Shown here: positions 2,747 through 51,200 of the stretch, piece after piece
How the letters are laid out: every line of letters starts with the position of its first letter
Numbering within the stretch: the stretch's first letter is position 1
NCBI GenBank assembly: GCA_009760855.2
Contig: WPIO01000001.1
Coordinates: forward strand, 4,608,001-4,672,000
DNA: 64,000 nt
From: Cristatella mucedo
Taxonomy: Eukaryota > Bryozoa > Phylactolaemata > Cristatellidae
Reading direction: 5' to 3'
Translations under genes and position numbers: made by a program
Notes under the pieces: model-generated
What the model saw: only the letters and a program-made list of their open reading frames with translations
Told to the model about the DNA's origin: nothing
Databases searched by the model: none

Positions 2747-3211
2747 ATTACGTGGACACATGCATATGCCAGTGCTGGAAGGTACACCTTAATGGCTGTG
2801 GCCACCAACAATGTCAGCTCAGCGGCGACTGCAGCTAACGTTACCGTTCAGAATCCAGTCGCTGGCCTCGATGTTACCTCGGACTGTCTAATCACCAAGA
2901 TACAAGATCAACCTTCGCGCATCGTTTTCTACACCAAATTCACACAGTCCAGCAATGGGGTCACCTTTTTTGTGCCTACGGGTGCAGTGAAGATTTTTTC
3001 GCTTAACTCAACAAATTGTACTGTGCAGCAAAGTCAGGTTTCTGGCACCATATGCCAGCCATTAATAATCAGCACTCCGCTAAATTTTTCGTCGGCGTGG
3101 TTAGATTTTGACGTCTTCTACTATCCCGATTATGGAACCTACAACGCTATCGTCAACATCTCGAATTTTGTCAGCTTTGCCACGTGGAACTTCACATTCA
3201 ACGTCGACACG
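2747..3211 (+). CDS. Exon A1
   Basis: 155 codons, phase 0/0; acceptor tcgcag, donor gtaaat. It starts ITWTHAY, carries NCT and IC cysteines plus one extra Cys (SDC), then YPDYGTYN, and ends FNVDT. Seven N-X-S/T sequons. Confidence 0.93.
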
Positions 3212-48200: not shown

Positions 48201-51200
48201 CATCATTCATCAGCCACTACATCTGCGCTATGGCGACACAATCATTATCAATCAGACAATGATAAACGGAACGCACGTGAACTATACATCATCCTTTGAT
48301 GGATTTTCCACAAGGAACTGGACGATGGACTGGGTAACAAAACTGTTGAAAAGTTCATTTGATTTTGCAATAGCTTCACCGACCCCTGCTAAGCGTTGCA
48401 CCCCTATTCGTATTCTAAAATGGCTTGTGGTCAGTTTAAGTAAGTTGTGGTCAATTAGATGCCATTACCAATGTATGTCAAAATCATAAATAAACTTGTT
48501 TCCTTATTTAGTCGGGCGTGCGGTGCAAATTACCATCTTTTCCTTTTAAATTTTGGTATCCTGAAGTGAGAAATGCCACACCGCTAGGTGCTGTCTGTGT
48601 TTCACACAGATATCAGCAGCATTATCTTAATAGTTCGGTAACCTTGACTTTTGCTACTCATTGTGCTTTGCAGGTAAATCGAATAGGGCACACGGAGCTG
48701 ACACTTGCTGATTATAAAACGACGGGACCGCACATTTTGAACATGTCAGCGATGAATCTCTTGAACACAGTTACTTCTGACATCGTCCTCTGGGTTGACT
48801 ACGAGCTGACGGTGGGTCCATATTGGTCCTCATATTGATACAGTTGTTGCAGTAACTAGATGACTTCGGCTACCGGCATATAGCAAGGATCTGTGTAAAA
48901 TAGTAGTGCTATTTTAGTCTCATGGGCCTACTTGGCGAAGGAAAACAAATATCATAGCATCTTTTATACACACGATGAGTTTATTGTAGTCAGAAATTGA
49001 TAGAATGCCAAAGTTTGACTAGAAATGACCGCAACGAGTATGAATTATGATAATACTAATGAGTCGTTTGCTAAATGCCCTAAGAGTACTATATCTCTTA
49101 CTGAGCAGTTCACTAATACTAGAAAACTAGAAAATCAATTTTCACTAAAAACATGAACATTCTTGACACACGTAACCACACAAAGAACACAAGTCACACG
49201 GAATTCCGTGGGAAATTGGTTGGTTTTCATTTTTTTTTATTACCTACAAGTGAGAGAACTGCCGATTTGAATCTTGGATGAGGCTTTGAAACATAAGAGG
49301 TGATGGAACTGTGTCCAAATTATTTGAGATTAGTTAGAAGCGCAGCAAAGCTTCTTGAGTCAGAAGAGCAGGTTTATTTTTAAAGGCTGATTAGTAACTT
49401 ATTCTGACAGGTAAGCCGAAATGAGAGGATGAGCAACTAAATGTGACTCATAAGTTCTTGAGGTCAGCGAGCTGCTTGTTGTGGAACCTGTGCAAGTCGA
49501 AAAGTGCTGTTTTTTGGCAGTTGGTACTTTCACATCAGAAAAGCCTAGGAGCAAAGTTTTGCAAAAACCGAAAACGTCTTATTGCACAGGCAAGAAGATC
49601 TGAGAGTACTTGTTAAGAAACCTGTATTTGCCCAAGTTAAGCTCGCCCTTTACGACCCAAGTCCTCGGTTCTATTCTTGCAGTGGGCTTTTATCCTTTAT
49701 TTCCCACTGGAAGCCATAGGGAGAGCTGCTAAGGCTGCTTGCCGCTTTATTAATGTGGCTGTTGAATCAGCTAACATTTTAGGGTGCAGGATACAAGTTT
49801 TTCAGTTTCCAGATTCAATGACGATAGCTTTTATAGATGGCAGGTGTTAGTTTGAAATTGGCTTATACAGCAGTAAAAAATAAGTACTCTCGACGAATTT
49901 TCGATTGCTTGTTGTGTGCCCCAGCCTTCTAATACTGAAATTTCAATATTGTGCTGTTCCAATCTACTGTTTGGAAAATAACACCAGCTTGAAATATAAA
50001 ATTATGCAGAAATACATCGCGCAGTAAGCGAATATCGATAACAAATATCTACTTATATAGCAGCAATAGTTCACTGTATTCGATGAGGTCATTAAAAGTT
50101 AATTGAAAACATAGGTGAAACGAACTAGCCAGGTAGTATGCAGTGCTACAGCCAAATCTACTTGAGGTTCCCGCATTACCAAATCTGACCGAACAAATGC
50201 GCTTGTGTGATCCAAGCATCCTGTTAAAATGTGGGGTTTGCTGGTAACATGCGCCAGTCGAGGACAGGCAGCCCTTGTAAATATTCCCGGTGGTTTTCAA
50301 CATTGCTAAAGCCTCCCAAATTGAAGTCGGCCAATCGGACTGCTCGTTTCCTACTAGCTTTATTATTAAATCAATAAATTAAACCGTTTATCATTTTTGT
50401 AGAATGTGTCATTTATTCCAAACACTACATATCTAAGAGCCACTACTGATGTCTGCAACTTCAACGTAACTATGAGTCTTGGCTCACGAATAAACATGAG
50501 TATCACTTACGGAGATGATGACAGCATTTTCTCCTACTGGGATAACGATTTTCTTTCCCACGACGTGGTAAGACTACTCTTGGAAGAGACTTCACTTGGT
50601 CAGAGCTCTTATTTTTAAGCTAAATGCTAGCCATCTCATACTTATGCCCTTTATTCTGTGCATGTCCACCGTAATTTTAGTCGCACTCGCAAGCGCTACA
50701 GTACCGTCCTGCTTTTTTAGGCACAGTTCACTCACAGCTACCTGCTCGCTGGTCATTACGTGGCGACTTTGTTGGCAATAAACGCCATAAACCAGAAGAT
50801 TCTTTCCGTCAACCTAACAATTCAGAACCCGGTGTTTGGTATGAGTGTGAATACTGACTCCCCGAGGCCTATATATCCGGGACAGGTGTCCACTGTTACG
50901 TTCTCGCTCAGCTTCGACAGCAATGGAGGACAATACCTTGTGGCAACAGATGCATATGAGAAATATACTTACGGAAATATGGCTTGTCCTCAATCAACTA
51001 CACATGTTGCAACAAGCCAATCAGTGACGCTCACGGCCGCCAACCAAACCACCATAGCAGCGCCGTCTATAACCACCGGCGAAACCACTAAGGTATCGGT
51101 GCTGAAGCTATTCTATAGAGAGATTGATAATTGTTTCTTTGCTAAACTTTTCGTAGGCGATGATAGTCCCGACAAGCAACGAAGCATGCTCTATGTACTG

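Follow-up and report, generated by a model that had tools for sequence, protein, structure and literature searches.

The tandem exon array at 2747-50567 is probably the ectodomain of an invertebrate polycystin-1-family gene, in which block duplication would have made a long, extensible tether. It lies in the window, a stretch of 64,000 nt (C111:4608001-4672000) in the 572-Mb genome of Cristatella mucedo, which was examined together with 100 kb on either side; positions are given relative to the window and are negative to its left.

Exon organization of the array

Seven tandem units, each with seven exons (A to G), are present in the window on the plus strand (Table 1). Open frames, splice sites and alignment of the units with one another were used to model these 49 exons, and all borders are predicted. 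An AG acceptor and a GT donor flank every one of the 49, and in all seven units the introns that follow A to G have phases 0, 2, 0, 1, 0, 0, 0. Exon A varies between 456 and 477 nt, C between 133 and 142 nt and D between 181 and 187 nt; B (101 nt), E (263 nt), F (138 nt) and G (165 nt) have one length in all seven. The introns range from 86 to 5,334 nt, and the units total 482-489 codons and, when joined, form a frame of 10,167 nt (3,389 codons) that contains no stop. Seven units of seven exons with near-fixed lengths and this phase pattern had been proposed in the first-pass annotation, and these counts bear the proposal out. The number of units holds for the window; the gene has eight seven-exon units, as one more (U0) lies to the left.

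Because frames were picked for openness, the lack of stops does not count as independent proof. Constancy of exon length and phase between units that share 36-65% protein identity (the exception being U4 and U5, at 97%) is the stronger sign. Across units, 87 of 491 alignment columns are invariant, and N-glycosylation sequons number 15 to 28 per unit. A codon-and-splice predictor, for which 56 exons (the 49 of the array and the seven of U0) served as training set, gave back 50 of them exactly, a recovery that is not independent, since the same exons had trained it. The other 139 of its 189 predictions comprise incomplete versions of the exons it missed, terminal exons and numerous short exons with low scores. 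In the window there was no Rfam match above the gathering score and no tRNA, and the seven non-array ORFs had no Pfam match at E ≤ 0.01.

Several repeats are interspersed with the exons. The introns contain long TA, TC/CT and TG microsatellites, and there is a GC-rich minisatellite of 14/41 bp at 41040-41137. A repeat of ~1.2 kb is present at 45543-46753, in the intron between exons D and E of U7, and at 69810-71039 (L019), between predicted REJ exons; the two copies are 86.8% alike, and related DNA occurs at 88703-89489 and also left of the window. The second copy has a long open frame near 70126-70995, presumably resembling the end of a non-LTR retrotransposon reverse transcriptase. An element of ~560 bp at 754-1311 is dispersed, with copies (81-93%) at -92007, -41286 and -35834; to the right of the window its matches are shorter. 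The region 59700-64000 contains many short degenerate repeats in both orientations, with protein-like self matches, and two ORFs without a Pfam match.

Table 1. Predicted exons and other features of the window
Feature	Position	Strand	Basis and remarks
U1	A 2747-3211, B 3346-3446, C 3590-3725, D 3818-4004, E 5492-5754, F 7231-7368, G 7483-7647	+	485 codons; AG/GT, phases, open frame
U2	A 8720-9196, B 9373-9473, C 9597-9732, D 9859-10045, E 10962-11224, F 11452-11589, G 11676-11840	+	489 codons; AG/GT, phases, open frame; 7/7 exons exact by predictor
U3	A 12153-12620, B 12739-12839, C 15046-15181, D 15353-15539, E 17493-17755, F 23090-23227, G 23324-23488	+	486 codons; AG/GT, phases, open frame
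U4	A 25791-26249, B 27051-27151, C 27325-27457, D 27650-27836, E 27963-28225, F 28331-28468, G 28555-28719	+	482 codons; AG/GT, phases, open frame
U5	A 30019-30477, B 31276-31376, C 31550-31682, D 31875-32061, E 32188-32450, F 32556-32693, G 32780-32944	+	482 codons; AG/GT, phases, open frame; 97% protein identity to U4
U6	A 34234-34695, B 34837-34937, C 36480-36612, D 36737-36923, E 38686-38948, F 39058-39195, G 39332-39496	+	483 codons; AG/GT, phases, open frame
U7	A 43210-43665, B 43754-43854, C 44258-44399, D 44964-45144, E 48071-48333, F 48674-48811, G 50403-50567	+	482 codons; AG/GT, phases, open frame
Tandem block of about 4.23 kb	25757-29603 and 29985-33832 (whole 25757-33832)	+	U4/U5 mosaic
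Split exon A (three pieces)	50721-51092, 51567-51670, 51881-52043	+	terminal exons, phase chain
Fused B + C	52640-52888 (alternative acceptor 52679)	+	terminal exons, phase chain
Remaining terminal exons	55455-55698, 55843-56011, 57140-57357, 58229-58355, 58557-58794, 58883-59047	+	phase chain
Microsatellite/minisatellite sites	14887-14948; 41040-41137; 44093-44153; 47182-47306; 51695-51772; 52440-52541; 54071-54580		

PKD domains of one unit

By register, each unit encodes five domains: d1 in G and A, d2 in A, d3 in B and C, d4 in D and E, and d5 in E and F. Exons G and A each encode part of the first domain, so that, read by domains, a unit runs G-A-B-C-D-E-F. Most introns had been described as cutting through domains, and with the domain borders set in this analysis they do: those at B|C, D|E, E|F and G|A are mid-domain, C|D is near a domain end, and A|B and F|G are at borders.

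The joined protein matches the Pfam PKD family (PF00801) with E values of 6.2e-58 for U1 and U2 and 2.8e-41 for U6 and U7, in seven and six separate stretches, respectively, at E ≤ 1, where the register has ten in each pair. Ten domains were also tested singly against the curated PKD cut-off of 23.5 bits. Both d1 domains (37.2 and 32.2 bits) and the one d3 (60.4 bits) passed, as did one of two d4 domains (41.7 and 15.5 bits). None of three d5 domains passed (16.9 bits, E 0.0066; 15.9 bits, E 0.014; no match) and neither did the two d2 domains, one without a match and one at 15.9 bits, in a match that covers 19 residues of the last part only. In profile comparisons, for which the best of 20 reversed controls had an E value of 0.057, d1, d3 and d4 are related to one another (d1-d3 1.8e-12, d3-d4 1.4e-11, d1-d4 3.3e-08), and d5 joins d1 (5e-06) and d3 (7e-04), poorly d4 (0.01), with 0.18 to d2. 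The d2 profile joins d3 (1.4e-05), d1 and d4 only through its final ~28 residues. Six strands are predicted over d2 in a structure model of exon A that is too poor to judge this domain (mean pLDDT 60.8 for the best of five models, 37-43 for the others; pTM 0.42). Of the five PKD domains per ~485 residues originally assigned, d1 and d3 are therefore clear and d4 is mixed, but d5 is weak and d2 is PKD-like at its end only. The total of about 41 PKD domains in the window likewise stands by register (7 × 5 + 6), with fewer passing Pfam, and for the whole gene the register predicts 15 + 40 + 6, about 61 PKD-type domains, of which the number passing Pfam is again lower.

Terminal exons and a downstream membrane module

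Ten terminal exons at 50721-59047 chain in phase over 2,049 nt without a stop. They encode about six PKD-type domains by register, and Pfam finds PKD with an E value of 7.9e-27 on the joined exons, in two separate stretches. Further downstream on the same strand, a REJ domain is recognized in one exon alone (26.1 bits, cut-off 25) and in the joined predicted exons, for which 710 of 841 joined residues were given (120 bits, E 1.3e-34). A PLAT/LH2 domain follows at C111:4704547-4704672 (32.9 bits, cut-off 23), with 21.6 bits, below the cut-off, on joined predicted exons. Joined predicted exons, still on this strand, match the polycystin domain PF20519 (119.6 bits, E 1.7e-34) and the cation channel family PF08016 (91.5 bits, E 6.8e-26), and the last predicted channel exon ends near 110334. 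In structure comparisons of the joined C-terminal piece, PKD2L1 is the best match overall; polycystin-2 and polycystin-1 also match, the latter (6a70_B) over residues 30-256 of the piece with an E value of 3.1e-38. Four of the 20 flanking stretches were searched with Pfam in the three plus-strand frames (L018, L022, L023 and L024), and L024 gave no match; L018 is the one among them that belongs to the ten left stretches. The C-terminal exons break the single phase chain, so some exons must be missing from the model, and several of the predicted exons in this incomplete model contain hydrophobic stretches. For the GPS/GAIN region, the joined pieces were without a Pfam match; 5 kb of N occupies 89501-94500, where GPS is expected. 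In another part of the genome, at C11:3493845-3522324, PLAT matches occur in series on one strand within 30 kb, which we take to be the arrangement of LOXHD1 proteins.

Members of the polycystin-1 family have eleven transmembrane helices, and proteins of the polycystin-2 (PKD2) family are channels without a PKD/REJ/PLAT ectodomain. Here PKD repeats, REJ and PLAT are all on the same strand, together with a polycystin domain and a channel-like region, so that the gene is, by prediction, one of the polycystin-1 family, with a length of about 180 kb. The giant surface protein that had been suggested for this locus is thus of the polycystin-1 kind. A secreted or matrix protein lacking a membrane part was also considered, and is ruled out by the REJ, PLAT and channel exons on the same strand.

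Extension of the gene to the left

That the gene might hold more units to the left had already been raised, and it does: an eighth complete unit, U0, is located at -7078 to -879, and shorter units precede it. The exons A to G of U0 are 450, 101, 136, 187, 263, 138 and 162 nt long, with an open frame of 479 codons. Five diverged units (L1-L5), from -68731 to -9659, are predicted to consist of exons B, C, D, E and F, and in the open frames listed for three of the gaps no exon A was found. In L3-L5 the predicted lengths of B to F are 98 or 101, 133, 178, 266 and 138 nt, and in L1 and L2 exon B is predicted to be split in two. The five units are 888, 873, 813, 816 and 816 nt long, each a multiple of three without a stop, and all 27 predicted exons have AG/GT borders. 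Pfam finds PKD in both of the two that were tested of these five units (E 1.3e-10 and 2.6e-25).

The evidence for these left exons comes from the predictor, from phase and from resemblance to the exon-class profiles, and exons left of -7078, as also those right of 59047, are less sure than the rest. Two borders in L3-L5 are uncertain: the donor that ends exon E is weak, with a score of 1.6 where a competing donor of the same phase has 5.7, and the acceptor that starts exon C was picked by likeness out of three. A predicted exon of G type at -9542 to -9381 leads on to U0, and an exon that contains an ATG at -68910 and may encode a signal peptide is weakly predicted. From this possible signal peptide to 59047 there are 95 predicted exons and 6,024 predicted codons, which, checked piece by piece, contain no stop.

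Duplication of multi-exon blocks

In a tree of 34 domains from seven units (U5 was left out as a near copy, and there was no d1 for U0), each of the five positions in the unit forms one side of a branch, with support of 84 to 99. The position labels change four times on this tree, which is the minimum; shuffled labels changed 21.2 times on average, and none of 200 shuffles was as low. Domains thus cluster by their position in the unit, and blocks, not single domains, were therefore copied. Duplication of single domains is ruled out by this tree, in which d2 and d5 are flagged for long branches. When L1, L2, L3 and L5 were added, with U5 and L4 left out as near-copies, d1, d2 and d5 stayed single and d3 and d4 did not, with five changes against a minimum of four. 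The seven-exon block originally named as the duplicating module therefore holds in that the copied module is multi-exon and is not the single domain, but the left part of the gene uses blocks of B to F, with three domains.

Two sets of near-identical copies are present. In U4 and U5, near-identical stretches are interleaved with stretches of 85-90% identity, across exons and introns alike. Identity is 98-100% over most of 25969-28862, with an 89% patch near 26419-26530 and a longest exact run of 1,095 bp at 27768-28862 that includes exons and introns; it is 85-90% rightward of this core and drops to 65-73% left of exon A. This mosaic suggests an older tandem duplication with gene conversion later. 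To the left, a block with a period of 6.8 kb is present in three tandem copies (L3-L5) of about 98.9% identity (88 to 100% in single windows), the third shortened. In the exon model, the edges of the left block lie in the B-C intron and those of U4/U5 in the G-A intron, so two registers have been duplicated. The near-identical copies in both sets could have been miscounted in the assembly.

The module in paralogous genes

Searching the genome with unit U2 gave 61 matches, of which 14 are outside the array gene. A paralog on C634 has exons A to E of 435, 101, 133, 181 and 263 nt with the phases of the array, in one open frame, and a neighbouring polycystin gene upstream on C111 (4417501-4424500) has exons C, D and E of 136, 178 and 263 nt, also with these phases. 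With partial modules of near-equal exon lengths and array phases in two paralogs, the module is not peculiar to the array gene. On C310, the end of E to B lies within one open frame of 355 residues. There are 23 matches of class A, 13 in the array gene (the eight whole units, two pieces of the split terminal A and three weak matches to the left) and ten in paralogs (six on C634, two in the C111 neighbour and two on C310); of 17 matches of class E, 12 are in the array gene and five in paralogs. Several of the paralog A matches are in two pieces, resembling the split terminal A of the array gene. One or two units are detected per paralog (C634, C310 and the C111 neighbour), counts that are lower bounds, against eight in the array gene. 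In two pieces on C77 (L006 and L007) the phases of the predicted PKD exons differ, being 1>2 and 1>1, so the module is shown for some polycystin genes and not for all.

One reading of the pattern is that the ancestral gene would have had roughly one unit of seven exons plus a terminal unit, and that the former was amplified to eight in the array gene. In a tree of units and paralogs, the seven array rows (U5 left out) are on one side of a branch at 62/50 support only; C634 forms a long branch and half of the neighbour's row is empty, so the tree is not decisive. Dating the array amplification after the paralog split was considered and set aside, as this support is too low to carry it.

Polycystin-domain matches number 22, on eight contigs (C77, C111, C122, C310, C550, C634, C676 and C681); the polycystin family of this genome is large, and several of its loci are close together on one contig. 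A presumed mitochondrial contig, C688, carries a COX1 gene in which TGA encodes a residue; several ATA codons fall where Met, and several AGR codons where Ser, is usual. This suggests the invertebrate code (table 5), and so most likely a protostome. Pieces resembling COX1 at C166:4375626-4376390 and also on C83, C549 and C299 are perhaps nuclear copies of mitochondrial DNA.

Comparison with known systems

In human polycystin-1, REJ, PLAT and a transmembrane channel-like module come after the PKD array, the order seen here, and 6a70_B matches the C-terminal piece; the human N-terminus has LRR, WSC and C-type lectin domains. Super-repeats of several exons, copied in tandem within one gene, occur in titin, nebulin and apolipoprotein(a), which are like the array in block copying and unlike it in domains and protein families. 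According to the account in PMC1934368, human polycystin-1 has 16 PKD repeats, 15 of them in tandem, against about 61 predicted PKD-type domains in the array gene, and that account contains no five-domain super-repeat. As it also relates, the sea urchin has ten SpREJ genes, with PKD repeats, REJ, GPS, PLAT and 1-11 TM segments and proteins of up to 3,716 residues (PMC1934368). As far as this account goes, the Cristatella gene shares with them PKD repeats, REJ, PLAT and membership of a multigene family; the largest is about 89 kb with 52 exons, whereas the array gene is about 180 kb with 95 predicted exons to 59047. Among the matches listed, and with most subscription journals outside the search, no polycystin with more than 16 PKD domains or with a five-domain super-repeat is named in titles or abstract openings.

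Origin and function of the array

Tandem duplications with both ends in introns would have copied whole multi-exon blocks, and gene conversion would have partly homogenised adjacent units. Since a block starts and finishes in the same intron, each gain or loss preserves the reading frame; with all eight units a multiple of three between phase-0 introns, gain, loss and skipping are in frame. The array may then serve as a long, extensible tether that passes force or ligand contact to the membrane module, the number of units determining its reach. A folded PKD-type domain measures about 4 nm, from which the reach would be roughly 0.25 micrometre, and an array about four times as long would make a longer, softer tether for the same membrane module. 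In the account in PMC1934368 the PKD repeats of human polycystin-1 unfold one by one under force and then refold, and, as stated in PMC2862302, force strengthens polycystin-1 PKD domains.

A different reading, doubtful in our view yet deserving attention, is gamete recognition like that of SpREJ, in which the glycosylated units would be a fast-changing binding surface homogenised by gene conversion and length would matter little. The REJ domain, the number of sequons, the strong divergence of units other than U4/U5 and the mosaic identity of that pair all agree with it, as does the large family, given the ten SpREJ genes of the sea urchin (in the account in PMC1934368); yet REJ is present in most PKD1 family members and is no proof of a gamete role, and the polycystin domain and channel region are as in polycystins generally. 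It is somewhat less likely that the extra units are functionless, their number drifting by in-frame unequal crossing over in a protein that tolerates any length. Such gains and losses would be frame-safe, and the recent copies are near-identical, but the invariant columns, near-fixed exon lengths and open frame kept at 36-65% identity suggest constraint on each unit. The near-identity within U4/U5 and within L3-L5 would also fit an array that is in part an assembly artefact, or that comprises several genes or pseudogenes. We consider this very improbable, as the two copies in U4/U5 differ by 10-15% right of the core and by more left of exon A, unlike a false duplication, and 6,024 predicted codons run to 59047 without a stop.

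Going beyond the block-duplicated tether that we favour, seven-exon units might be gained, lost, converted or skipped in frame, with individuals, populations or cell types differing in PKD unit number and hence in tether reach and compliance. Such a length-tunable mechanosensor is an unlikely proposition at present, and we offer it as speculation from the exon structure.

Defects in polycystins cause a common human kidney disease. With a predicted array about four times the human length (61 against 16), the Cristatella gene would be a natural experiment on whether length tunes the response. For force spectroscopy it offers neighbouring copies of a single module, some near-identical and others strongly diverged, and the five-exon and seven-exon modules predicted within one gene make it a clear case of the block-wise growth of a modular protein.
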